From positions 434,001 through 498,000 of the forward strand of contig NZ_OMPN01000001.1 in assembly GCF_900291975.1 (NCBI RefSeq): 64,000 nucleotides of DNA, in the 5' to 3' direction. Every line of letters starts with the position of its first letter. Within the stretch, counting starts at the first letter, position 1. A model generated the notes under the pieces. It searched no databases. It saw only the letters and a list, made by a program, of their open reading frames with translations, and was not told where the DNA came from. Both the position numbers and the translations under genes were made by a program. This document shows positions 7,001 to 41,866 of the stretch, one piece after another. This DNA is from Agathobaculum massiliense. GTDB taxonomy: Bacteria; Bacillota; Clostridia; Oscillospirales; Butyricicoccaceae.

Positions 7001-8423
7001 GGTTGACATAGGTCTGGAACGCGTCATGGATCGCCCCGTCGGTCACGCGCACGGCCGCGATCTCGGTGATCTCCTCGCTCGCGGGATTGAGACCGGTGGT
7101 TTCCAGGTCAAACACGATGAACGTTCCCTCCAGCGGTTCGACCGAGCCGCCCCGCACGACCGAAAGGCTGTCCGCATCGTTGACATAGTACGCCTCAATG
7201 CCATAAATGATCTTCATATCCCCAATAATGTCCTTCTGCTTGCCCTCCTGCGCATGCAGGGCTTCGGGAAAGGCCTGCGCTACACCGTGGTCGGTGATCG
7301 CCATGGCGCGGTGTCCCCACTGCGCAGCGCGGCACAACAGCGCCGCAGTGGAGGACATACCATCCATCGCGCTCATATTGGTGTGCAGATGCAGTTCGAC
7401 GCGCTTCATGCCCTCGGCCTTGTCCTGCCGTACGGGCTTTTTCGCCTTGACGATACCGGTCGGCTCCAAAACCATCTCCTTGGCGAACGAGTCATACACC
7501 ATCTTGCCCTGCACCGTGCAGTACAGGCCGTTTTTGATGTGGGAGGCCGTGTCGCCCGCCTTGTCCGCAGCCAGGAATTTGGACACGCGCACCGAGTTCG
7601 TGCGGTCGGTCATATCGAACGCAATCTTTACATAGTCCTTGCCGGTCTTTTTGCTGTGGATGTCCTTGTTGTCGGTGAAGAACACCTCGCCCTGAATGGT
7701 GACCATATCGTAAGCTGCGATCGCCTCGTTGACCGACACGATCGGGTCCTGTATCAGCTTGCCGAAGATCAGGTCGTCGTCGCGCACCTTTTCCGTGCGC
7801 GGGCGCTGGTAGCCCGCATTTTCCGGCCGGGGCGCGGGACGCGGCTTTTTCGGCTTGGGCGCCGCCGGAGCCGCGGACACTGCTTCCGCGACCGCCTGCT
7901 GCAAAATCTCCTCGCGCTTCGGCGCGTCGGACGGGGGCGCGTAATCCTCTGCCGCCGCGCGCACCGCATGCACCGGACACACCATATCCAGCTCGCGTCG
8001 GATTCGCGCTTCCAGATGGCGCAGCGCGTTGGCAAAATGCTTTTCGCTCACCTCGTCCATCGGAATATACAGCGCGCCGCCCTCGTATTTCCACTTGGCG
8101 CAGTCGAGCAGACCGCGCGCGGAGGGCATGCGGTACGCCATATCCTCATACAGCGAGCCTATGTACGCATCGGTCAGCCCGTCCGGCATGCTGTAGCGCG
8201 GCTCGATACACACGCGCTCCAGCCCGTACTGCTTTGCGATCTGCTTTTCCACCTGGGCGATCGCTTTTCGGCTGACCACCTGCGAAAGTCCCAACTCGAC
8301 CACCATCACGGTATTGTTATCCCCAAACGCGAGAGAACGCACCTCGCCCCCGGCGAGGTGCTGTTCTTCCGCCACGCTTTTATAGTTTCCAAAAATATCA
8401 ATGAGCTTGCCAGACACGGTCAT
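4041..8423 (-). CDS. polC: DNA polymerase III alpha subunit, PolC type
   Basis: The replicative polymerase with built-in proofreading of Bacillota. The 1460 residues match the usual PolC length. In order: an N-terminal domain with a Pro/Ala-rich linker (about 165-215), an OB fold (about 220-330), the first part of the PHP domain (VELHLHTNMSAMDGM near 341), a DEDD exonuclease (FIVFDLETTGLNP near 434), the remaining PHP part, then the polymerase core with the metal-binding PDIDLNF near 979 and an HHH region (MPGIGEQAAQNIVEERR) near 1410. A CPTCGKPL zinc motif just precedes the catalytic aspartates. The start overlaps the ispG stop as ATGA. AAGGAGA sits only one base from this ATG, so the GTG two codons downstream at 8417 is an equally good start. 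Confidence 0.97.
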   Translation of the reverse strand: MTVSGKLIDIFGNYKSVAEEQHLAGGEVRSLAFGDNNTVMVVELGLSQVVSRKAIAQVEKQIAKQYGLERVCIEPRYSMPDGLTDAYIGSLYEDMAYRMPSARGLLDCAKWKYEGGALYIPMDEVSEKHFANALRHLEARIRRELDMVCPVHAVRAAAEDYAPPSDAPKREEILQQAVAEAVSAAPAAPKPKKPRPAPRPENAGYQRPRTEKVRDDDLIFGKLIQDPIVSVNEAIAAYDMVTIQGEVFFTDNKDIHSKKTGKDYVKIAFDMTDRTNSVRVSKFLAADKAGDTASHIKNGLYCTVQGKMVYDSFAKEMVLEPTGIVKAKKPVRQDKAEGMKRVELHLHTNMSAMDGMSSTAALLCRAAQWGHRAMAITDHGVAQAFPEALHAQEGKQKDIIGDMKIIYGIEAYYVNDADSLSVVRGGSVEPLEGTFIVFDLETTGLNPASEEITEIAAVRVTDGAIHDAFQTYVNPHKPIPEEITKLTGISDETVADAPDLGEAVPKFLAWAGEGRYPLVAHNAGFDMGFLRAACKRLSIEREFTAIDTLEMSRMMLPHLHKFKLNILAKELQVGPFEHHRASEDAAVLGRIFVKLLARLREEMHARTVADINPVLAATTDRKNKLKNLPRYHFIILVKNQAGLRNLYQLISKSFLEYYNKRPIMPRSELIRHREGLIFGSACEAGEVFRALTGNAEWDELKRLASFYDYLEIQPIGNNNFMIGKGMAKDEEQLRDWNRAILRLADELGKPCCATGDVHFLEPEDEAFRRILMAGQGFGDADNQAPLYFKSTDEMLKEFAYLGADRAYEVVVRNTNRIADMCDVIRPVPRENYPPHIDGCEDDLRNMCYEKAKRIYGDPLPELVQARLDRELNSIIGNGYAVMYIIAQKLVTKSLADGYLVGSRGSVGSSLAAFMSDITEVNSLAPHYLCPDDKYVEWHEEYSCGVDLPDKVCPTCGKPLTKQGFNIPFETFLGFEGDKVPDIDLNFAGEYQSRIHHYTGEIFGHDHVFRAGTIGTVAEKTAYGYVKKYMDERGIECSRAEENRLAAGCTGVRRTSGQHPGGVVVVPKEIEIYDVCPVQHPADDPDSDIITTHFEYHSIDANLLKLDELGHDDPTMIKHLENLTGVNAQEIPLDDPDTMSLFHSCKALKYTGENPDTDPILGDLGCLAVPEFGTKFVRGMVKETHPSTFAELVSISGLSHGTDVWLGNAAELVRRGIPLSGCICCRDDIMNYLILQGVKPKLAFKTMESVRKGKGLTEEMEAAMNEQNVPDWYIDSCKKIKYMFPKAHAVAYVMMAFRIAWFKVHRPLAFYSAYFSVRAKGFDASCMIKGDKVCIDKIKELQMKDREKTISAAEKEMMTTLEVCHEFYRRGFVFEPMDIYTSAATDFIVTEKGLIPPFTSMPGIGEQAAQNIVEERRNGRFLSAEEMAVRCPKASKAVVELLDQIGALGSMPKTTQISLFA

Positions 8424-9475
8424 TCTCCTTCAAAATGCACGATCTCCTCCATCAGCACGTCCACAAGCTGCTCCTGCGGCACCTTTTTGATGATTTCGCC
8501 GCGGCGGAAGAGCAGACCCACGCCGTCCCCGCCCGCGATGCCGAGGTCGGCCTCGCGCGCCTCGCCCGGTCCGTTGACCGCGCAGCCCATGACCGCCACC
8601 TTCAAGCGCTTGCCGCGTATTTCCATGCAGCGCCGCTCGACCTCTCTGGCAATGCCGATCAGGTCGATGCGGGTACGCCCGCAGGTCGGGCAGGAAACCA
8701 CATTGATGCCTTCCTCCGCACGCCCCACAGCTTTCAGGATCGCCTTCGCCGCGTAAACCTCTTTGACCGGATCATCGGTCAGGGAAACGCGGATGGTATC
8801 GCCCACGCCAAGTGCGAGCAGGCCGCCGATACCGGCCGCGGACTTGACGGTACCCATGTATTCCGTCCCCGCTTCGGTCACGCCGAGGTGGAGCGGGTAA
8901 GCGGTTTTTTCGTGCGCGAGCAAATAGGCCTGCATGGTGTCCGGCACAGAGGAGGATTTGATGGAAATGCAGATATCGTCAAACCCGCAGTCGCCCAGCA
9001 GTCCGGCATGGTACAGCGCGGATTCGACCATGGCTTCCGGCGTCGGCCCGCCGAACTTCTCCAGGATATGCTTTTCCACCGAACCGGAGTTGACCCCGAT
9101 GCGGATCGGGATGCGGCGCGCTTTCGCGGCCTGCACGACCGCGTGTACGCGGTCCGCGCCGCCGATATTGCCGGGATTAAGCCGTATCTTATCCACGCCC
9201 GCTTCGATCGATGCCAGCGCAAGCCGGTAGTCGAAATGGATATCCGCCACGACCGGTATGGGCGAAGCGGCGCAGATCGCTTTGAGCGCTTCCGCGGCCT
9301 GTGCATCCGGCACGGCGCAGCGCACGACATCGCAGCCTGCTTCGGCCAGCGCGCGGATCTGGGCCAGCGTCGCCTGCGCGTCCCGCGTGTCCGTGTTGGT
9401 CATGGATTGGACCGAAACGGGCGCGCCGCCGCCGATCCGCACGTCGCGGAGCCTGATTTGCTTTGTCTGTTTCAT
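8420..9475 (-). CDS. ispG: 4-hydroxy-3-methylbut-2-enyl diphosphate synthase
   Basis: IspG (GcpE) reduces methylerythritol cyclodiphosphate to HMBPP, the penultimate step of the MEP isoprenoid pathway, using a [4Fe-4S] cluster. The 351 residues show the TIM-barrel start (SVQSMTNTDT, PVVADIHFDYRLAL, IRLNPGNIG) and the C-terminal cluster ligands in VSCPTCGRTRIDL plus the later VAVMGCAVNGPGEA. The length is that of the short two-domain bacterial form. A GGAAAGGA site precedes the ATG. It lies between rseP and polC in one operon and overlaps polC by four bases. Confidence 0.97.
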   Translation of the reverse strand: MKQTKQIRLRDVRIGGGAPVSVQSMTNTDTRDAQATLAQIRALAEAGCDVVRCAVPDAQAAEALKAICAASPIPVVADIHFDYRLALASIEAGVDKIRLNPGNIGGADRVHAVVQAAKARRIPIRIGVNSGSVEKHILEKFGGPTPEAMVESALYHAGLLGDCGFDDICISIKSSSVPDTMQAYLLAHEKTAYPLHLGVTEAGTEYMGTVKSAAGIGGLLALGVGDTIRVSLTDDPVKEVYAAKAILKAVGRAEEGINVVSCPTCGRTRIDLIGIAREVERRCMEIRGKRLKVAVMGCAVNGPGEAREADLGIAGGDGVGLLFRRGEIIKKVPQEQLVDVLMEEIVHFEGE

Positions 9476-9522
9476 ATTCCGTCCTTTCCTTTGCCTGTCG
9501 CGGCAAACGGCGGTCCGCCCGC

Positions 9523-10560
9523 CTATCTGCCGGAAACGATGCGCAAAATATCCTGTCCAGTCACATAGACCATCAGCGCAAGCAGCAGCATAAGCCCCGC
9601 CGCGTGGATATATCCCTCATATTTGGGCGGCACCGGCTTGCGGCGGACCGCCTCGATCAGCAGGAATACCAGCCGCCCTCCGTCCAGGGCGGGCAGCGGC
9701 AGCAGGTTCATCACACCGAGGTTGATGGAAATAAACGCCACCAACTGCAAAAACGCCGATATGCTGTATCTGGCTGTGCTCGCCATCACCTCTGCCACAC
9801 CGACCGGTCCGGAAAGCTGGTCCACGCCGACCTGTCCCGTTACCAGCATGCCAAGGCTCGACCAGACGAGCCGCGCGTAATTTACCGAGGTGCGCGCCGC
9901 CATATTCAGGTGCATGCCAATGCTGTTCGGCTGTTCCGCGAAGTTCAGCCCGATCAGCATGCGGCCGTCCTCCCCCTCTATCGCCGGCGCCAGCGTGACC
10001 GCGGGCAGCGTTATTTTCCGCCCATCCCGCCGCACAACGACCTCGTAGACCGTATCCGTGCCGCGAGCCAGCGCGGTTTCAAAATCGCCGCGCAGCAAAA
10101 TATGGTAGCCGTCCACCCGAAGGATCTCGTCCCCCGCCTGTAGGCCGCCCTCCGCTGCGGCGGTGCTTGCCGGATCCACGCTGTCAAGCGTGGAGACAAC
10201 ATAGCCCCCCTCCGGCCCGTTCGGCCGGATAACAGCAAGTACGATAAGGAAGCCGATCAGGAAATTCATCAGCGCGCCCGCCGCCACGATCAGCATGCGG
10301 CGCGGCAGGCTCGCCTTGCCGAACGCGCGCTCGTTTTCGCTCTCTCCGTCCTCTCCCTCCATCACACACGCGCCGCCGAACGGCAGGAGCTTTAAGCAGT
10401 ACAACGTGCCGTTATGCTGCTTTTTGAGCAGCGTCGGCCCCATACCGATCCAGAATTCATTTACCTGAACCCCGCCGCGCTTGGCGGTGATAAAATGGCC
10501 GAATTCATGCACAATGACCAGAATGCCGAACGCTAATATAGCCAGAATGATTTGCAGCAA
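9523..10560 (-). CDS. rseP: Site-2 zinc metalloprotease RseP
   Basis: A membrane-embedded protease that cleaves substrates within the bilayer, such as anti-sigma factors and signal peptide remnants. The 345 residues start with a transmembrane helix carrying HEFGH (residues 18-22, zinc ligands and catalytic Glu). A single PDZ domain follows (about 115-200, VDPASTAAAEGGLQAGDEIL). The C-terminal membrane part contains the third zinc-site motif NLLPLPALDGGR. The start is a TTG at 10560 with AAAGGAGA upstream; no ATG fits. It sits between dxr and ispG, the common clostridial order. Confidence 0.95.
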   Translation of the reverse strand: MLQIILAILAFGILVIVHEFGHFITAKRGGVQVNEFWIGMGPTLLKKQHNGTLYCLKLLPFGGACVMEGEDGESENERAFGKASLPRRMLIVAAGALMNFLIGFLIVLAVIRPNGPEGGYVVSTLDSVDPASTAAAEGGLQAGDEILRVDGYHILLRGDFETALARGTDTVYEVVVRRDGRKITLPAVTLAPAIEGEDGRMLIGLNFAEQPNSIGMHLNMAARTSVNYARLVWSSLGMLVTGQVGVDQLSGPVGVAEVMASTARYSISAFLQLVAFISINLGVMNLLPLPALDGGRLVFLLIEAVRRKPVPPKYEGYIHAAGLMLLLALMVYVTGQDILRIVSGR

Positions 10561-11786: not shown

Positions 11787-12605
11787 TTACCAGATCAGCC
11801 GGAACAGCATCTCCGCCATCGGCGCGACAAACAGCACGCTGTCGAACCGGTCGAGTACCCCGCCATGCCCTGGGAAGATATGGCCGTAATCCTTGATACC
11901 GGTCTGCCGTTTGATGACCGAGAAGGAAAGGTCCCCGATCTCGCCCAGCACCGCGCCCAGACCGCCAAGCACAGCCGCCGCCCAGACCGGCATATCCAGA
12001 TCGAGCAGGACATTCATCAGCAGCGCCGCAAGCATTACCAGAACCGCGCCGCCTATCACGCCGCCGATCGCGCCCTCAACCGTTTTTTTAGGGCTGACGA
12101 CCGGCGCGAGCCTGTGCTTGCCGAAAAGCATGCCGGAAAACAGCGCGCAGGTATCCGCGCCCCACGCGGCGAGCAGCGGCAGCAGCACGATGAACGGGCC
12201 GCTATGCTCCTCCATCTGGAAGATGCGCAGCAGGCTGAGCAGCAGGTAGGGTACCAGCAACGCGCCGAAAAAGGCCCACGGCACCTGCGAGGCGTTCATG
12301 CTGTCGTGAAAGCGCAGCAAAATCAGGAACGAGCCAACCAGCAGCAGGAACGCCAGACCACGCAGCGTCCAGTCCAGGGAAAACGGGGCCAATGACGAAT
12401 GCCCCGCTGCGAGTAGCAGCGACACCAAGCCGCATAAGATCAGCTCCAGCCGGTTATGCACCAGCTTAGTCGAACCAAGCACCTCATACGTTGCCAGCAC
12501 GCAAAGCGCGGCAAGCGCCGCTTCCAGCACAACAGGCGGGAACACATACAGCGCGAGCAGCACAAAAACAAAGCCGATCACGCCGAACAACACTCTTGCT
12601 TTCAT
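11787..12605 (-). CDS. cdsA: Phosphatidate cytidylyltransferase
   Basis: CdsA makes CDP-diacylglycerol from phosphatidic acid and CTP, feeding phospholipid synthesis at the membrane. The 272-residue protein is mostly hydrophobic with about eight predicted membrane helices. It carries the C-terminal signature as KRQTGIKDYGHIFPGHGGVLDRFDS, including the conserved GHGG and DRFDS residues. SPKKTVEGAIGG is the preceding conserved loop. It sits directly between uppS and dxr in the pyrH-polC operon. Confidence 0.96.
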   Translation of the reverse strand: MKARVLFGVIGFVFVLLALYVFPPVVLEAALAALCVLATYEVLGSTKLVHNRLELILCGLVSLLLAAGHSSLAPFSLDWTLRGLAFLLLVGSFLILLRFHDSMNASQVPWAFFGALLVPYLLLSLLRIFQMEEHSGPFIVLLPLLAAWGADTCALFSGMLFGKHRLAPVVSPKKTVEGAIGGVIGGAVLVMLAALLMNVLLDLDMPVWAAAVLGGLGAVLGEIGDLSFSVIKRQTGIKDYGHIFPGHGGVLDRFDSVLFVAPMAEMLFRLIW

Positions 12606-35875: not shown

Positions 35876-35903
35876 TTGACATCTGCGATATAGGTTGTAT
35901 AAT
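35876..35903 (+). promoter_or_regulatory. Consensus promoter of the cobalamin-regulated operon
   Basis: TTGACA (35876-35881) and TATAAT (35898-35903) are both perfect consensus with a 16-base spacer, just upstream of the riboswitch. A very strong promoter fits a system whose control is entirely at the RNA level. Confidence 0.85.
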
Positions 35904-35929
35904 GAGGAATAGATTCAAAACTGAATACA

Positions 35930-36222
35930 GCGAGCAGTCGGTGCCTGCACTTCCTTATCTGTCGAAGATGCGGGTTAAAAGGGAAACAGGTGGGAAGCCT
36001 GTACGATCTCGTCACTGTAAGCAGGGAATGCGCGTCCATTCAGTCCACTGGTGCAAACCGGGAAGGCGGCCGTGCGTAGCGATCTGCAAGTCAGGAAACC
36101 TGCCGCCTGTTGGTACAGGAATCACATTCCAGATCACGAGTAATTGGTCGTACTGTAGCCGCGTTTGTCTCTTTACGACCCTTTTATTTGCACGTCATAT
36201 GCAGTAAAAGGGTTTTGTTTTT
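35930..36222 (+). ncRNA. Cobalamin riboswitch with terminator platform
   Basis: The leader contains the cobalamin aptamer core: TTAAAAGGGAAACAGGTGGG, then GTCACTGTAAGC, and the B12 box AGTCAGGAAACCTGCC at 36089-36104. Aptamer limits near 35930 and 36125 are estimates. Downstream, ACCCTTTTA...TGCA (36178-36192) pairs with TGCA...TAAAAGGGT (36200-36213), followed by TTTTGTTTTT, an intrinsic terminator. Binding of adenosylcobalamin or a related cobamide should favour termination, so the operon is on when B12 is scarce. The first gene starts 75 bases after the terminator. Confidence 0.93.
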
Positions 36223-36297
36223 CCTGTACTTTTTCAGAAGTGGTGTGCATTTTATATACATCACAGGGGATGTCCCCCAAAAGGAGGAAAAACAAAA

Positions 36298-37299
36298 ATG
36301 AAACTTAAAAAACTGCTGGTTGTCCTGCTATCGGCCGCCCTGCTTGCTTCTCTGCTGGCCGGATGCGCTTCCACTCAAACGCAGGCGGAAGACAACACGG
36401 ATACCCACGCTGAAACCGCGGCCGGCGGGGAGACAGAACAGACTGCCCCCGATGAAAACTATGATACCGGAGACGCCAGTCTGGACGATCCGCTCAATCA
36501 GGACGATATTGGCGAAAACGAACTGCTGGTTGTCAGCTTCGGCACCAGCTATAACGACAACCGCCGGCTTACGATCGGCGCCATCGAGAAAGCCATGCAG
36601 GAAGCATTCCCTGACTACTCGGTACGCCGCGGCTTTACCAGCCAAATCATCCTTGACCACGTCAAGGACCGCGATGGCGAAGTGATTGACAACGTTGGCG
36701 AGGCGCTGGACCGCGCCGCTGATAACGGTGTCAAAAATCTGGTCGTTCAGCCGACCCATCTGATGAATGGTCTGGAATACAATGATCTGGTCAATGAACT
36801 CGCGGAGTACAGCGATTCTTTTGAAAAGGTAGTCATCGGCGAACCGCTGCTGACCAGTGACGCGGATTTCCAGGCCGTCGCGGATGCAATCGTCGCGGCG
36901 ACTGCGGAATATGACGACGGCGAAACCGCAATCTGCTTTATGGGCCACGGGACCGAGGCCGATTCCAACAGCGTATATGCCAGGATGCAGCAGGTGTTGA
37001 CGGACGGCGGCCATGCCAATTACTTTGTCGGCACGGTGGAAGCCTCTCCGACGTTAGAGGATGTCCTGTCGCTTGTCCAGGCCGGCAATTACAAAAAGGT
37101 AGTGCTTCGTCCGCTGATGATCGTGGCAGGCGACCATGCCAACAACGATATGGCCGGCGATGAGGAAGGCGCCTGGAAAACCGCTTTCGAGGACGCCGGT
37201 TATGAAGTGATTACGATCGTAGAGGGCTTAGGGCAGCTCGAAGCGATCCAGGACTTGCTGGTACAGCACGCACAGGCTGCAGCGGCAAAATTAGGCTGA
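36298..37299 (+). CDS. cbiK: Exported CbiK-like sirohydrochlorin cobaltochelatase lipoprotein
   Basis: CbiK enzymes insert cobalt (or other metals) into sirohydrochlorin. This 333-residue protein has a lipoprotein signal peptide with lipobox LLAGC (Cys23). An acidic linker of about 45 residues follows, then a full chelatase domain from about 75: LLVVSFGTSYNDNRRLTIGAIEKAM, FPDYSVRRGFTSQIILDH, QPTHLMNGLEY with His154 and CFMGHGTEAD with His217. The two His match the metal-site pair of the family. It should act outside the membrane, not in the cytoplasm where cobalamin is made. No other cob or cbi biosynthesis genes are adjacent. It may remove or insert metal in a scavenged tetrapyrrole before uptake. 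AAGGAGG precedes the ATG. Confidence 0.88.
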   Translation: MKLKKLLVVLLSAALLASLLAGCASTQTQAEDNTDTHAETAAGGETEQTAPDENYDTGDASLDDPLNQDDIGENELLVVSFGTSYNDNRRLTIGAIEKAMQEAFPDYSVRRGFTSQIILDHVKDRDGEVIDNVGEALDRAADNGVKNLVVQPTHLMNGLEYNDLVNELAEYSDSFEKVVIGEPLLTSDADFQAVADAIVAATAEYDDGETAICFMGHGTEADSNSVYARMQQVLTDGGHANYFVGTVEASPTLEDVLSLVQAGNYKKVVLRPLMIVAGDHANNDMAGDEEGAWKTAFEDAGYEVITIVEGLGQLEAIQDLLVQHAQAAAAKLG

Positions 37300-37350
37300 T
37301 TATTTCAAACAGCTTTCTTTCCTTATCTTTCTGCTTTTTTATACTTCTTG

Positions 37351-37393
37351 TTCTGAACGGGGTGCGGCTTCTCAGGCCGGACCCCGTTCAGAA
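37351..37393 (+). other. Strong intercistronic hairpin between cbiK and the next lipoprotein
   Basis: A 13-bp perfect stem (37351-37363 with 37381-37393) with a structured 17-base loop. No T run follows directly, though seven T lie about 12 bases on. It may be an RNA stabiliser or processing site giving cbiK a different level from the transporter genes, or a weak terminator. Confidence 0.55.
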
Positions 37394-37424
37394 TGTCGAG
37401 GGAACATTTTTTTGCAAAAGGAGG

Positions 37425-38354
37425 ATGCGGTATTCTCACGAAAACCGCGCTAAACACATGAGAACAGGCAACCTTGTACCACTTGCCACTCTAACGGCCC
37501 TGCTGCTGTTCGGGGTGGGCTGCACCGCTGATAGAAATGGTCAGCAATCCGATATTCCACCCGTAAATGACGCAGTCGCTTCCGCCGACGAGATGGCCGG
37601 CGTAGAAGACGTTGTTGCGGAGGATATGACACCGATCGACGGCTCTCAGATCAGGGACGGCGTATACGATGTAACGGTAGACTCCAGCTCATCCATGTTC
37701 CATATCGTCGCCTGTCGGCTTACCGTAAAGGACGGAAGCATGACCGCACAAATGACCATGGGCGGAGCCGGCTACCTGTATGTCTATATGGGTACGGGCG
37801 AGCAGGCCGCAGCCGCAGACGAGACGGCATATATCCCGTTTGTCGAAGAGGCCGCAGGCGCCCACACCTATACCGTGCCGGTCGATGCGCTGGATGCTGG
37901 CATCCCCTGCGCCGCATTCAGCAAAAACAAGGAAAAATGGTACGACCGCACGCTGGTGTTCCGCGCCGATTCCCTGCCGGTTGACGCTTTTGCCTCCGGC
38001 GTCGTAACAACGCCGGAGGAGCTGGCGCTGGCGGATGGCAGCTATCAGGTTGACATCGCCCTGGAGGGCGGCTCCGGCCGCGCGAGCGTGGAATCGCCCG
38101 CGCAGGTGACGGTCAGGGACGGCGAGGTCACGGCAACTATCGTCTGGAGCAGCTCGAACTACGACTACATGAAGGTTGCTGATGTGCGCTATGACGCTGT
38201 CATTGAAAACGACCGTTCGGTGTTTACCATCCCCGTGACCTGTTTTGACTGGAAAATGGCGGTGGTTGCTGATACGGTTGCAATGAGCCAGCCGCATGAA
38301 ATTGATTACGCGCTACGCTTCGATTCGGCTTCCCTTTCTCCGGCGGCATCATGA
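37425..38354 (+). CDS. Lipoprotein with two tandem NEAT-like repeats, function unknown
   Basis: A 309-residue exported protein with a lipobox ending FGVGC. Two related beta-rich modules follow. The first starts DGVYDVTVDSSSSMFHIVAC, then LTVKDGSMTAQMTMGG, and runs to about residue 200. The second starts DGSYQVDIALEGG, then AQVTVRDGEVTATIVWSS and YDYMKV. The second resembles the iron-transport-associated NEAT pattern (DGxY, VxVxDG, final YxxxKV). This suggests binding of heme, a corrinoid or another tetrapyrrole; this is inference. AAAGGAGG abuts the ATG at 37425. The ATG at 37458 gives a more usual signal peptide but lacks a ribosome site. It overlaps the next gene as ATGA. Confidence 0.7.
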   Translation: MRYSHENRAKHMRTGNLVPLATLTALLLFGVGCTADRNGQQSDIPPVNDAVASADEMAGVEDVVAEDMTPIDGSQIRDGVYDVTVDSSSSMFHIVACRLTVKDGSMTAQMTMGGAGYLYVYMGTGEQAAAADETAYIPFVEEAAGAHTYTVPVDALDAGIPCAAFSKNKEKWYDRTLVFRADSLPVDAFASGVVTTPEELALADGSYQVDIALEGGSGRASVESPAQVTVRDGEVTATIVWSSSNYDYMKVADVRYDAVIENDRSVFTIPVTCFDWKMAVVADTVAMSQPHEIDYALRFDSASLSPAAS

Positions 38355-39493
38355 AAAGGCATGGAATGGCGGCGGCCATCCTTTCGCTTGCCGTTCTGCT
38401 GGCCGCCTGCTCCCCCGCATCCGAGCCGGTGTCAGGTGAGCCTTCCGCAGTCAGTTGGGACAGCCTCACGGTGGAAAGCGGCCTTGACCTGCAATACGCC
38501 GACCAGTTCACAGTCGATTATTACACCGGCGGCTATGCGTTAATCCATATTGTCGACGGCAACGATTATCTTGTCGTTCCGGAAAACAAGCCGGTGCCGG
38601 ATGGGCTGGCGGATACGACCGTTGTCCTTACGCAACCGCTGGACCATATCTATCTGGTTGCAACCTCTGCCATGGACCTGTTCTGCGCGCTGGACAGTAT
38701 CGGCAGCATCCGGCTGTCCGGCACAGACGAAAGAGGCTGGTATATTGATGAGGCCAAAGCCGCAATGCAAAACGGAGCGATGCTGTACGCCGGCAAATAC
38801 AGTGCGCCGGATTATGAACTGATTTATGCTGAGCAATGCGATCTGGCGGTCGAATCGACCATGATCTATCATTCACCCGAGGTGAAAGAACAGCTCGAAC
38901 GGTTGGGCGTACCCGTACTGGTAGAGCGCTCCAGCTACGAGAGCAGCCCGCTGGGGCGCATGGAGTGGCTGAAGCTGTACGGAGTGCTGCTGAACCGTGA
39001 GGAGGCGGCGGAAGCCATATATCAGCAGGCGCTCGACAGCCTGCGGCCTGTGATGGAGCAGGAGAACACCGGCAAGACCGTCGCGTTCTTTTATATCAAT
39101 TCCAATGGTTCCGCCAATGTCCGCAAGTCCAACGACTATGTGGCGAAAATGATCGAAATGGCGGGCGGAACATACATCTTCAGCGACCTTGGGAATGACA
39201 ACGCACTCTCTACCATGAATATGCAGATGGAGATGTTTTATACGGGAGCCAAAGACGCGGATGTCATCATCTATAACAGCACGATTGACGGGGAACTGCA
39301 TTCCATCGACGAGTTGCTGGCCAAAAGCCCGCTACTCGCTGATTTCAAGGCAGTCCGGAACGGCGACGTGTGGTGTACCGGACAAAACCTGTTCCAGTCC
39401 ACGATGGGCCTTGGCGATATGATTCTGGATATCCACGCCGTACTGACCGAAGAGGCTCCGGAACCTCTGACCTACCTGCATCGGCTGACATAA
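38351..39493 (+). CDS. BtuF/FepB-like substrate-binding lipoprotein
   Basis: A 380-residue binding protein for the class that carries cobalamin, heme and siderophores. A lipobox LAAC (Cys20) ends the signal peptide. The fold is two lobes joined by a long helix: IYLVATSAMDLFCALDSI, CDLAVESTMIYHSPEVKEQLERLGVPVLVERSS, then VAFFYINSNGSANVRKSNDYVAKMIEMAGG and DADVIIYNST. It overlaps the preceding gene by four bases and lies 12 bases before the permease gene. The riboswitch points to a cobamide or cobalamin precursor as ligand. Confidence 0.9.
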   Translation: MKRHGMAAAILSLAVLLAACSPASEPVSGEPSAVSWDSLTVESGLDLQYADQFTVDYYTGGYALIHIVDGNDYLVVPENKPVPDGLADTTVVLTQPLDHIYLVATSAMDLFCALDSIGSIRLSGTDERGWYIDEAKAAMQNGAMLYAGKYSAPDYELIYAEQCDLAVESTMIYHSPEVKEQLERLGVPVLVERSSYESSPLGRMEWLKLYGVLLNREEAAEAIYQQALDSLRPVMEQENTGKTVAFFYINSNGSANVRKSNDYVAKMIEMAGGTYIFSDLGNDNALSTMNMQMEMFYTGAKDADVIIYNSTIDGELHSIDELLAKSPLLADFKAVRNGDVWCTGQNLFQSTMGLGDMILDIHAVLTEEAPEPLTYLHRLT

Positions 39494-39505
39494 AAGAAGG
39501 TACCT

Positions 39506-40519
39506 ATGGAAGAAAAACGAACCAGGCGTTATATCTTATCCTTCGGCATGCTGGCCATACTGCTGCTGGCCCTGCTGATCTGGAACATCCATTCGGGCAG
39601 CCTGCATCTGTCCGTCAGCGAAGTGCTGCACATCCTGCTGTTTCGCAGCGGTGAAAACGCCGCCGTCATCTGGGACATCCGCCTGCCGCGCATTCTGGCC
39701 GCGGTTTTACTGGGAGGCGCGCTGTCGGTTTCCGGTTTTCTGCTGCAGACCTTTTTTGCCAACCCTATTGCCAGCCCGTTTATTCTGGGCATTTCATCCG
39801 GTTCCCGACTGATGGTTTCGCTGGCTTTGGTGGGCGCACTTGCGCACGGCCTGATCATCGGCTCGGCGCTGATGATTACGGCGGCCTTTGTGGGCGCCAT
39901 GCTATGCATGGGGTTTGTGCTGCTCATTTCCCAGAAGGTCAGGAAAATGTCGCTGCTCATCATCTGCGGCGTAATGATCGGCAATATCTGTTCTGCGGTT
40001 ACGGATTTTGTTGTAACCTTTGCCGATGATTTCAATATCGTCAATCTTCATAACTGGTCAATGGGCAGCTTTTCCGGCATTTCATGGGAAAACATTTACA
40101 TCATGGCACCCGTTGTGCTGGCCGCGCTGCTGCTTACCTTCCTGCTCTCTAAGCCGATCAGCGCCTATCAGATGGGCGAGGTCTATGCGCGGAATATGGG
40201 GGTGAATATTCGGGCCTTCCGCTTATCCCTGATTTTGCTGTCCAGCCTGTTATCCGCATGCGTGGCCGCTTTTGCCGGACCGATCTCGTTTGTCGGCATT
40301 GCGGTACCGCATCTTGTAAAAAGCCTGTTCCAGACTGCCAAACCGCTTCTGATCATCCCCGGCTCTTTTCTGGGCGGCGCGGCCTTCAGCCTGTTCTGCG
40401 ATCTGATCGCGCGCACAGCTTTTGCTCCTACCGAACTAGGCATCAGCTCAGTAACAGCGGTTTTAGGCGCACCGGTCGTCATTTACATCATGGTGCGCCG
40501 CAGGATGCAGGCAGGATGA
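39506..40519 (+). CDS. FecCD-family ABC permease
   Basis: The 337-residue membrane subunit of a type II importer (BtuC/FecCD family). About ten hydrophobic helices are visible. The conserved regions are IRLPRILAAVLLGGALSVSGFLLQTFFANPIASPFILGISSG, then GPISFVGIAVPHLVKSLF and ELGISSVTAVLGAPVVIY near the end. Start ATG at 39506 with AAGAAGG. It works with the binding protein upstream and the ATPase 15 bases downstream. Confidence 0.94.
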   Translation: MEEKRTRRYILSFGMLAILLLALLIWNIHSGSLHLSVSEVLHILLFRSGENAAVIWDIRLPRILAAVLLGGALSVSGFLLQTFFANPIASPFILGISSGSRLMVSLALVGALAHGLIIGSALMITAAFVGAMLCMGFVLLISQKVRKMSLLIICGVMIGNICSAVTDFVVTFADDFNIVNLHNWSMGSFSGISWENIYIMAPVVLAALLLTFLLSKPISAYQMGEVYARNMGVNIRAFRLSLILLSSLLSACVAAFAGPISFVGIAVPHLVKSLFQTAKPLLIIPGSFLGGAAFSLFCDLIARTAFAPTELGISSVTAVLGAPVVIYIMVRRRMQAG

Positions 40520-40534
40520 AAGGAGGAAGCCGCT

Positions 40535-41653
40535 GTGGATACCTATAAAATCCGCACGGAACACATGACAGTAGGGTATCGCGGCGTTCCTCTGATCCGC
40601 GATATTGAGATTCACGTCCGCAAAGGCGAGATCCTGTCGCTCATCGGGCCGAATGGCGCAGGTAAATCCACTATATTGAAAAGCATCATTCGGCAGCTTG
40701 CCCTGATTGGCGGGACCGTATATCTGGACGGCCGCGCGATGCGCAGCCTGTCGGAGCAGACAGTTGCACAGTCGATGTCCGTCCTGATGACTGAGCGTGT
40801 CCAGCCTGAACTGATGACCTGCGGGGATATAGTTAGCACGGGACGGTATCCCTATACAGGGCTTATGGGCGTTTTATCCGCCGCTGACCGCCGCAAAGTG
40901 CGGGAAGCTATGGCGCTGGTGCATGCGGAGGAGCTGTATGACCGCGACTTTTCGCAGATCAGCGACGGGCAGCGGCAGCGCGTACTTCTGGCACGCGCCA
41001 TCTGCCAGGAGCCTGAAGTAATCGTGCTTGACGAGCCAACCTCCTTTCTGGACATCCGCTATAAGCTCGAATTATTGTCTATGCTCAAACAACTGGTGCG
41101 CGAAAAACAACTGGCGGTCGTTATGTCCCTGCACGAGATCGATCTGGCGCAAAAGGTATCCGATCACATCCTTTGTGTCCGGCACAACGCGGTAGACCGC
41201 TACGGTACGTCGGAAGAGATTTTCTCCGGCGGCTATATTGCCGAACTGTATGGAATCACCTCCGGTTCCTATAATGAAGCCTTTGGCTTTCCAGAACTGC
41301 AGGCAGCGCGGGGGCAGCCGCAGGTGTTTGTCATCGGCGGAGGCGGCAGCGGACTCCCGATATACCGCCGCTTGCAACAGCACGGCATCCCGTTCGCCGC
41401 CGGAATCCTGCATGAAAACGACATGGATTATCCTGTCGCGTCCATGCTGGCAGCGGAGGTCATTTCCGAACATGCCTATCAGCCGATCACCAAACAGACG
41501 TTACAGTCCGCATGTGCTGTAATGGATGCCTGCCGATATGTGTTCTGCCCATGCCAAACGTTCGGCCCGCTCAATCAGGCAAACGAACATCTGCGGCAGA
41601 GGGCAGGCCGCAAATTATGCGACGAGATTCCCGACTTGCCTTGCGAAGCATAG
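40535..41653 (+). CDS. BtuD/FecE-like ATPase with C-terminal extension
   Basis: The 372-residue ATP-binding subunit. Walker A is GPNGAGKST (38-46), the signature is the variant ISDGQRQRVLLARAI, and Walker B is VIVLDEPTSFLD. About 255 residues would complete a usual ATPase. The remaining 115 or so form an extra domain with a glycine-rich VFVIGGGGSGLPIYRRLQQHG, then GILHENDMDYPVASMLAAEV and a C-terminal CRYVFCPCQTFGPLN. The extension may bind a nucleotide or sense the substrate; its role is unknown. The start is GTG at 40535 after AGGAGGA. Confidence 0.9.
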   Translation: MDTYKIRTEHMTVGYRGVPLIRDIEIHVRKGEILSLIGPNGAGKSTILKSIIRQLALIGGTVYLDGRAMRSLSEQTVAQSMSVLMTERVQPELMTCGDIVSTGRYPYTGLMGVLSAADRRKVREAMALVHAEELYDRDFSQISDGQRQRVLLARAICQEPEVIVLDEPTSFLDIRYKLELLSMLKQLVREKQLAVVMSLHEIDLAQKVSDHILCVRHNAVDRYGTSEEIFSGGYIAELYGITSGSYNEAFGFPELQAARGQPQVFVIGGGGSGLPIYRRLQQHGIPFAAGILHENDMDYPVASMLAAEVISEHAYQPITKQTLQSACAVMDACRYVFCPCQTFGPLNQANEHLRQRAGRKLCDEIPDLPCEA

Positions 41654-41832
41654 GAGGGCAATGGGATTGGCGCCTCCGGTGTATCCGCACGGTTCACGGG
41701 AAACGGTTTATTTTTGCTCCCACGCCGGTTTTATTTTATCGTAAAAGGCAGGCCGGTGCATGGAGTCAAGCCATATCAGTTTATCATGATACCGAGCGGC
41801 GCGCTATCCTTAAGCGAAATGATTATACCAGA

Positions 41833-41866
41833 GCGGCTGTGGTATCACAGCCGCCCCTTTTTCTTT
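41833..41866 (+). terminator. Terminator of the cobalamin-regulated operon
   Basis: A 9-bp perfect GC-rich stem (41833-41841 with 41846-41854, loop GTAT) is followed by CCCTTTTTCTTT. Between the ATPase stop and this site a 27-codon frame begins at 41661 after AGGAGGG; it shows no family resemblance. Confidence 0.8.

Follow-up and report, generated by a model that had tools for sequence, protein, structure and literature searches.

On the forward strand of a 64,000-nucleotide stretch of the Agathobaculum massiliense genome (contig NZ_OMPN01000001.1, positions 434,001 to 498,000; hereafter the window), an operon at 35876-41862 comprises a promoter, a cobalamin riboswitch, five genes and a terminator-like hairpin. 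The genes encode an exported CbiK-family chelatase, a tandem-NEAT lipoprotein, a substrate-binding lipoprotein, a FecCD-family permease and an ATP-binding cassette (ABC) ATPase. We consider it probable that the operon serves, under repression by B12, to take up an early precursor of the vitamin, with cobalt inserted outside the membrane before relay, import and completion by Cbi enzymes. The wider proposal, that in many Clostridia the first cobalt-specific step of B12 synthesis takes place outside the membrane on sirohydrochlorin or factor III lost by neighbours, with a NEAT relay importing the complex, has in our estimate an even chance of being correct. The computed evidence consists of which genes are present and in what order, the riboswitch, the signals for export, the conservation of chelatase residues, the NEAT fold and the nested pattern in which upstream enzymes are missing. 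From it we infer the substrate, the insertion of metal outside the cell, the order of handover, repression by B12 and the direction in which transport runs.

In the proposed mechanism, the exported CbiK would insert cobalt into metal-free sirohydrochlorin (factor II) outside the membrane, while factor III is probably its substrate in species without CbiL; the source would be factor II or III lost by neighbouring cells. Cobalt insertion would mark the compound for relay, the tandem-NEAT lipoprotein would hold the tetrapyrrole and pass it to the binding lipoprotein, the FecCD/ATPase importer would carry the cobalt complex inward, and cytoplasmic Cbi enzymes would complete the cobamide. As a variant, siroheme may first lose its metal by reverse chelation, cobalt insertion following.

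To define how widely the module occurs, contigs of a genome collection were scanned, which confirmed at least 568 encoding stretches; the 80 kept for analysis all bear titles of Clostridia or Bacillota type, many with rumen or gut isolate names. A NEAT search of 197 genomes from the window organism's order gave 11 matches. Loci whose ends cut a gene were excluded from the denominators for gene order and for the B12 box. The genome-neighbourhood search proposed alongside the original prediction, for an exported CbiK next to the repeat lipoprotein and FecCD genes, shows that the module is found repeatedly in Clostridia: NEAT is immediately preceded by CbiK in 84 of the 85 loci with enough DNA, on which ground a chance neighbourhood was set aside. 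Downstream of NEAT, a binding protein is encoded in 77 of 81 loci, a permease in 73 of 78 and an ATPase in 73 of 78. Four loci (L041, L070, L077 and L102) have no recognised importer gene beside the CbiK-NEAT pair, and two (L093 and L099) have the binding protein alone. Natural single-frame fusions join CbiK to NEAT (L100, 9161-10843) and NEAT to the binding protein (L051, 9806-11872; L087, 10061-11806). Of the 83 loci with at least 400 upstream bases, 72 have a B12 box in the 1 kb preceding CbiK, against 5 hits elsewhere in 2.67 Mb with both strands counted. The Rfam cobalamin riboswitch precedes CbiK in all seven named loci tested and in four of ten loci from the order, among which L021 and L028 do not include that stretch. 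Among the 70 loci spanning 12 kb or more, 36 have a cobamide gene that shares the module's strand and lies no more than 1.5 kb away. At one locus (L019, genome G071), the exported CbiK is preceded by a NiCo riboswitch (12450-12521) at a distance of about 1.2 kb, with a gene in between, and no B12 box occurs within 1 kb upstream of that CbiK.

Pathway gene content was determined in 41 module-bearing genomes, namely 32 from the 80 kept stretches, eight of the ten other NEAT-positive genomes of the order, and the window's own (G000). Two further genomes, G051 (cbiD present, HemB absent) and G107 (87% complete, neither gene), were excluded because contig ends cut the module. Matches over the cut-off were obtained for cbiD in 41 genomes, CbiL in 26, SUMT in 12, HemC in 9 and HemB in 6. 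These sets are perfectly nested, whereas none of 100,000 random draws with equal set sizes was, a comparison that ignores relatedness. Such nesting would be expected if an imported intermediate made all earlier steps dispensable. The relatives thus display the pattern of tetrapyrrole-precursor salvagers, with HemB missing from 35 of the 41 genomes, HemB, HemC and SUMT together from 29, and cbiD kept throughout; other ring enzymes acting after CbiL were seen in module loci. The absence of SUMT with retention of CbiL in 14 genomes points to entry at sirohydrochlorin, and the absence of CbiL over the cut-off in 15 cbiD-positive genomes (G053, G071, G083, G109, G170, G207, G211, G212, G213, G217, G218, G222, G223, G225 and G227) points to entry at factor III. 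The original prediction had also allowed a scavenged corrinoid as the chelatase's substrate; a finished corrinoid in this role is disfavoured, since these cells keep their corrin-building genes.

The exported CbiK is the sole CbiK over the cut-off in 33 of the 41 genomes, its exported place agreeing in all 32 named genomes, and no separate CbiX was found in the 41, as every PF01903 match (E 0.001) falls on a CbiK place when read by eye. An additional cytoplasmic CbiK occurs in 6 of 12 genomes with SUMT versus 1 of 29 without it (Fisher p 0.001); the single SUMT-negative case, in G223, is a fragment of 156 residues where a contig ends, and the second CbiK of G218 is also exported. Agathobaculum butyriciproducens DSM 100391 (G197) and Evtepia gabavorous KLE1738 (G198) each lack HemB, HemC and SUMT, retain CbiL and have no CbiK other than the exported one. 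Incomplete assembly was rejected as the cause of HemB absence, given that the eight module genomes of stated completeness 90-100% (besides G000) all lack it. The predicted course of insertion into a scavenged sirohydrochlorin-like compound, handover and import is therefore supported comparatively by the conserved module and its riboswitch, the nested absence, the distribution of sole CbiK copies and the NEAT folds described below. Two side observations concern these genomes: HemC and SUMT without HemB, a porphobilinogen-dependence pattern, occur in G199 (L053), G201 (L065) and G204 (L105), and in G199 a 551-residue frame (L131, contig C79) contains both CbiK and CbiL matches, likely a cytoplasmic CbiK-CbiL fusion.

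Genomes of the order without the module served as controls. In the sample of 197, cbiD exceeded the cut-off in 34 genomes and HemB in 24 (one marginal: G008, 24.5 bits). Among cbiD-positive genomes, HemB was present in 1 of 10 with the module versus 19 of 24 without it (Fisher p 3e-4), and counting by genus gave 1 of 6 versus 10 of 14 (p 0.05). Neighbourhoods were read in 20 of the 24 cbiD-positive, module-free controls, G082, G085, G104 and G139 lying outside this reading. All 15 HemB-positive controls among the 20 have CbiL beside their cbi genes, and in all 11 whose CbiK was read the enzyme has no export signal.

The chelatase itself was characterized by family models, alignment and phylogeny. 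Residues 76-328 of the window protein match PF06180 with 263.7 bits against a cut-off of 26.2, and among solved structures it is most similar to FetB (E 1.2e-43), CbiK (5e-40) and CbiKP (9.9e-36). The FetB chain (PDB 9b86, titled heme-binding protein FetB) belongs to a protein of Porphyromonas gingivalis that we take to be identical with IhtB. Inspection of the alignments by eye places H217 and H280 opposite residues 145 and 207 of CbiK and 154 and 216 of CbiKP, and E160 opposite CbiK residue 89; these positions are the catalytic site residues. All three are invariant across 62 aligned exported CbiKs, as is H154. The original description of a complete CbiK-like chelatase outside the membrane with site histidines 154 and 217 is borne out for the family, the lipobox and H217, but the aligned pair is 217/280. 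The cut-off of 400 of the sirohydrochlorin cobaltochelatase equivalog NF047852 exceeds the scores of both the window CbiK (228 bits) and the cytoplasmic CbiK of the same genome (270 bits).

Among 84 exported-type relatives long enough to be judged, a permissive pattern detects a lipobox in 78, and 5 look Sec-type by eye; the remaining one, L074, most likely has a wrongly placed start, and an ordinary cytoplasmic CbiK was accordingly set aside. A tree built by a quick method from 43 exported sequences (every second eligible row) and 12 cytoplasmic ones, several of the latter on long branches, places the exported CbiKs in one group (SH-aLRT 99). Locus L081 encodes a single-frame tandem CbiK-CbiK protein (8073-9845).

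The second lipoprotein was modelled with AlphaFold from an alignment of 67 rows, with a mean predicted local distance difference test (pLDDT) score of 90.8. Module 2 superposes on the hemophore IsdX1 with heme (3sik_A) with Z 12.3 over 106 residues at a root-mean-square deviation (rmsd) of 2.4, and module 1, predicted alone (pLDDT 96.4), on the fifth NEAT domain of IsdX2 (4h8q) with Z 11.0 over 98 residues at rmsd 2.0; the two modules are mutually related (hhalign 98%). Judged from the predicted folds, the window lipoprotein is a tandem NEAT protein despite a PF05031 score below the Pfam cut-off (27.9 versus 32.8 bits, E 3.6e-6), and 58 of the 67 aligned members match this family at E ≤0.01. 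Two beta modules with a NEAT-like second one had been proposed; both modules and the character of the second hold, but the first adopts the NEAT fold as well. Searches with phmmer from the single NEAT protein and the single binding protein returned chance matches alone, and profiles did better.

In NEAT domains, the YxxxY motif provides the pair of tyrosines at the heme iron. Its place is taken in module 1 by K158/Y162 in the likeliest register and in module 2 by H280 (58 His, 8 Tyr and 1 Arg among the 67 members) and Y284, with neither register fixed by coordinates. Lys/Tyr and His/Tyr in place of the tyrosine pair hint that the ligand may be something other than heme.

The profile of the binding protein (35 rows) finds Lmo2184 (E 6.5e-9) and IsdE (E 0.001) as nearest solved structures, both of them heme receptors working with NEAT proteins, Lmo2184 as HupD; conserved residues of the binding protein do not discriminate between ligands. 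The permease is closest to HmuU (E 4e-48) and BtuC (E 3.3e-44), and residues 7-337 of the ATPase match the NCBIfam model for a corrinoid ABC ATPase, with E 6.3e-56 and a score short of the cut-off. The permease's nearest relatives are tetrapyrrole importers, for heme and B12 alike.

The first alternative is an importer of cobamides or cobinamide, in which the CbiK domain would serve for binding or storage and not as a chelatase. The BtuC-like permease and the corrinoid-type ATPase agree with it, as does the fact that B12 riboswitches commonly control btuFCD importers; the permease nevertheless scores 212.2 bits against the NCBIfam BtuC equivalog cut-off of 334. Furthermore, the site histidine pair and glutamate are invariant in the 62 aligned exported CbiKs, no class II chelatase is known to exchange the cobalt of a corrin, and salvagers of cobinamide alone would not keep cbiD and its neighbours, which are kept here. 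We regard this function as unlikely.

The second alternative is acquisition of iron from heme, with the exported CbiK working in reverse to remove the metal and the NEAT and IsdE-like proteins forming a heme relay. It draws on the title of the FetB structure, on hemophores as the nearest relatives of the NEAT fold, and on Lmo2184, IsdE and HmuU as relatives of the importer. The YxxxY pair is however not plainly kept, with Lys and His/Tyr at the proposed first position in an uncertain register. In the accessible part of PMC13227078, IhtB is termed a putative ferrochelatase/reverse ferrochelatase, yet heme acquisition leaves no place for the cobalamin riboswitch, the cbi neighbours, the cbiD of all 41 genomes or the nested upstream absence, and we judge it quite improbable.

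Several points weigh against the module being a precursor-uptake system. The solved structures closest to the binding protein, the permease and the NEAT modules are those of heme proteins, as set out above. Each pathway step was represented by one family model, with cbiD as the single genome-wide test after CbiL, and the 41 genomes were chosen for carrying the module and are to some degree related to one another. Among the controls, five cbiD-positive genomes lack HemB: G023 and G092 have a cytoplasmic CbiK with no module found nearby, G019 and G114 show nothing of the module in the stretches read, and G069 has an importer beside its cbi genes with no CbiK or NEAT near. In this last genome (L124, 13014-16157; L142), binding protein, permease and ATPase adjoin cbiA-cbiC-cbiD, and the set is perhaps an importer of an already cobaltated precursor; a module cut by the contig end was rejected as an explanation, because 2.7 kb beyond the binding protein contain no NEAT or CbiK match. 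A comparable arrangement was observed in G170, where a cbiA-cbiC-cbiD cluster begins with a second set of binding protein, permease and ATPase (L139), separate from the module copy.

Six genomes (G200, G201, G203, G204, G205 and G226) possess SUMT yet have the exported CbiK only, and three of these (G200, G203 and G226) have HemB and HemC too, with no separate CbiX seen. They could be accommodated by a third alternative, in which a cell's own sirohydrochlorin leaves, is cobaltated outside and returns, wrong metals inside thereby being avoided. Locus L074 is in keeping with such a cycle, as matches to hemC, cobA-hemD, hemB and hemL lie upstream of its module on the same strand. The 29 genomes without HemB, HemC and SUMT, however, would have no precursor of their own to export, and this route appears very unlikely.

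The window organism's own genome is a further point of this kind, since it encodes HemA, HemL, HemB, HemC, SUMT, CbiL and a cytoplasmic CbiK and does not need precursor salvage; with its early tetrapyrrole genes present, it does not show the salvager pattern of its relatives. An anaerobic B12 cluster, headed by the only other cobalamin riboswitch of the genome, contains cbiM, D, L, F, G, H, J, ET, A, C, P and B, cobT, cobD and the cytoplasmic CbiK, together with hemA, hemC, SUMT, hemB and hemL; one translated stretch of it (L006:7-810) has no NCBIfam match. Because a de novo route is present, the module would here be supplementary, providing a salvage route when B12 is low. Horizontal gain of the operon (36298-41653) is likely, because the three sampled congeners and 9 of 11 other sampled family members have cbiD over the cut-off and no NEAT match, and because the window's exported CbiK groups with Lachnospiraceae and Oscillospiraceae copies, being 80% identical to that of Lachnoclostridium An14. 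The G+C content of the operon is similar to that of the window (0.56 versus 0.57).

The features of the operon are summarized in Table 1. The perfect-consensus promoter, the cobalamin riboswitch and the three lipoproteins with a FecCD importer that the original prediction described were all recovered, lipobox-type cysteines being visible in the translations of all three lipoproteins. A promoter scan of the region returned 2 sites of at least 9/12, where shuffled sequence gave 0.7. The riboswitch score lies far above the gathering score of 31.5 bits and is the only RNA-family match in the window to exceed its gathering score; positions 1-31 kb were scanned for RNA families alone. The hairpin behind the aptamer is absent from the output of a consensus terminator scan. 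The start codon of the NEAT gene is uncertain, an in-frame ATG at 37425 being the other candidate, and its end overlaps the binding-protein gene by 4 bases. The scanned neighbours encode an upstream AraC-type regulator, a major facilitator superfamily transporter of sugar type and a xylose-isomerase-like protein, and no B12 gene was found among the neighbours scanned for domains, further downstream open reading frames being listed but unscanned. The predicted lack of an adjacent cobalamin synthesis gene consequently applies to the window, but not to the genome, with its B12 cluster elsewhere, nor to the many relatives in which cbi genes stand side by side with the module.

Table 1. Features of the riboswitch-controlled operon, in window coordinates.
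Feature	Position	Strand	Evidence
Sigma-70-type promoter TTGACA-16-TATAAT	35876..35903	+	12/12 consensus
Cobalamin riboswitch aptamer RF00174	35922..36121	+	111.7 bits, E 3.7e-27
Probable expression-platform terminator hairpin and U run	about 36177..36222	+	RNA fold -16.2 kcal/mol, z -3.03
Exported CbiK-family chelatase lipoprotein	36298..37299	+	PF06180 E 2.1e-78; lipobox LAGC, Cys23
Tandem-NEAT lipoprotein	37458..38354	+	Modules at about residues 66-174 and 188-294; AlphaFold and fold match
Class III substrate-binding lipoprotein	38351..39493	+	PF01497 E 5.1e-31
FecCD-family permease	39506..40519	+	PF01032 E 1.2e-77
ABC ATPase with C-terminal extension	40535..41653	+	PF00005
Operon terminator-like hairpin and T run	41833..41862	+	9-pair stem 41833-41854, then T run

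If the proposed function is correct, a biosynthetic step that is usually cytoplasmic would be performed on compounds shared between cells, and cross-feeding would include uncobaltated ring intermediates. The module would then belong to a class of systems for capturing vitamin precursors that had not been recognised before, and would account for the way of life of cobamide producers auxotrophic for the ring, which finish B12 without starting it. Annotations in which an exported CbiK is taken as a sign of ordinary prototrophy for B12 would be misleading. The component families are known, and the original suggestion that their combination under B12 control may be undescribed agrees with the literature search: no description of the combination, of its spread or of its link with a missing early pathway was found in the searchable open-licence literature, a coverage outside which most subscription papers and preprints fall.

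CbiK of Salmonella is cytoplasmic and CbiKP of Desulfovibrio vulgaris periplasmic; both belong to the same family as the window enzyme, with site histidines and glutamate aligned, whereas the window enzyme is a lipoprotein within an uptake operon, falls in a separate group of the tree and is often the only CbiK of its genome. The heme relays of the Isd and Hup type in Gram-positive bacteria likewise combine a NEAT protein, an IsdE-like receptor and a FecCD importer, but the module adds a cobalamin riboswitch, an exported chelatase and, in many loci, B12 synthesis genes beside it. BtuFCD importers of B12 share the FecCD permease and ATPase under a cobalamin riboswitch; unlike them, the module includes chelatase and NEAT proteins and is present in cells that keep corrin-ring genes. 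FetB/IhtB of P. gingivalis, the nearest solved chain, is also an exported CbiK-family protein, and cobalamin synthesis in that species was reportedly called an enigma by Roper et al. in 2000. FetB differs from the module in acting on heme or protoporphyrin, and neither a NEAT protein nor a cobalamin riboswitch nor a cbi neighbourhood is spoken of in the available portions of the sources. It is reported to insert manganese into protoporphyrin IX (accessible part of the review PMC13402209), and P. gingivalis is described as lacking the steps to precorrin-2 (accessible part of PMC6461909).

At the level of genomes, there is a parallel with the tetrapyrrole-precursor salvagers of Shelton et al. 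(PMC6461909), who predicted cobamide makers without the early tetrapyrrole steps. In the portion of that paper available, the same genome pattern is defined in 180 species, the use of 5-aminolevulinic acid (ALA) alone is tested and no uptake machinery is named. A precorrin-2 salvager class of 0.6% is listed in the accessible part of PMC8123684, and Rodionov et al., in the corresponding part of PMC6593275, treat as an open problem how B12 and its precursors are transported in many gut genomes. The module described here is a concrete candidate for this missing precursor-uptake step; its substrate is predicted, it has a riboswitch, and some of its carriers can be cultured.

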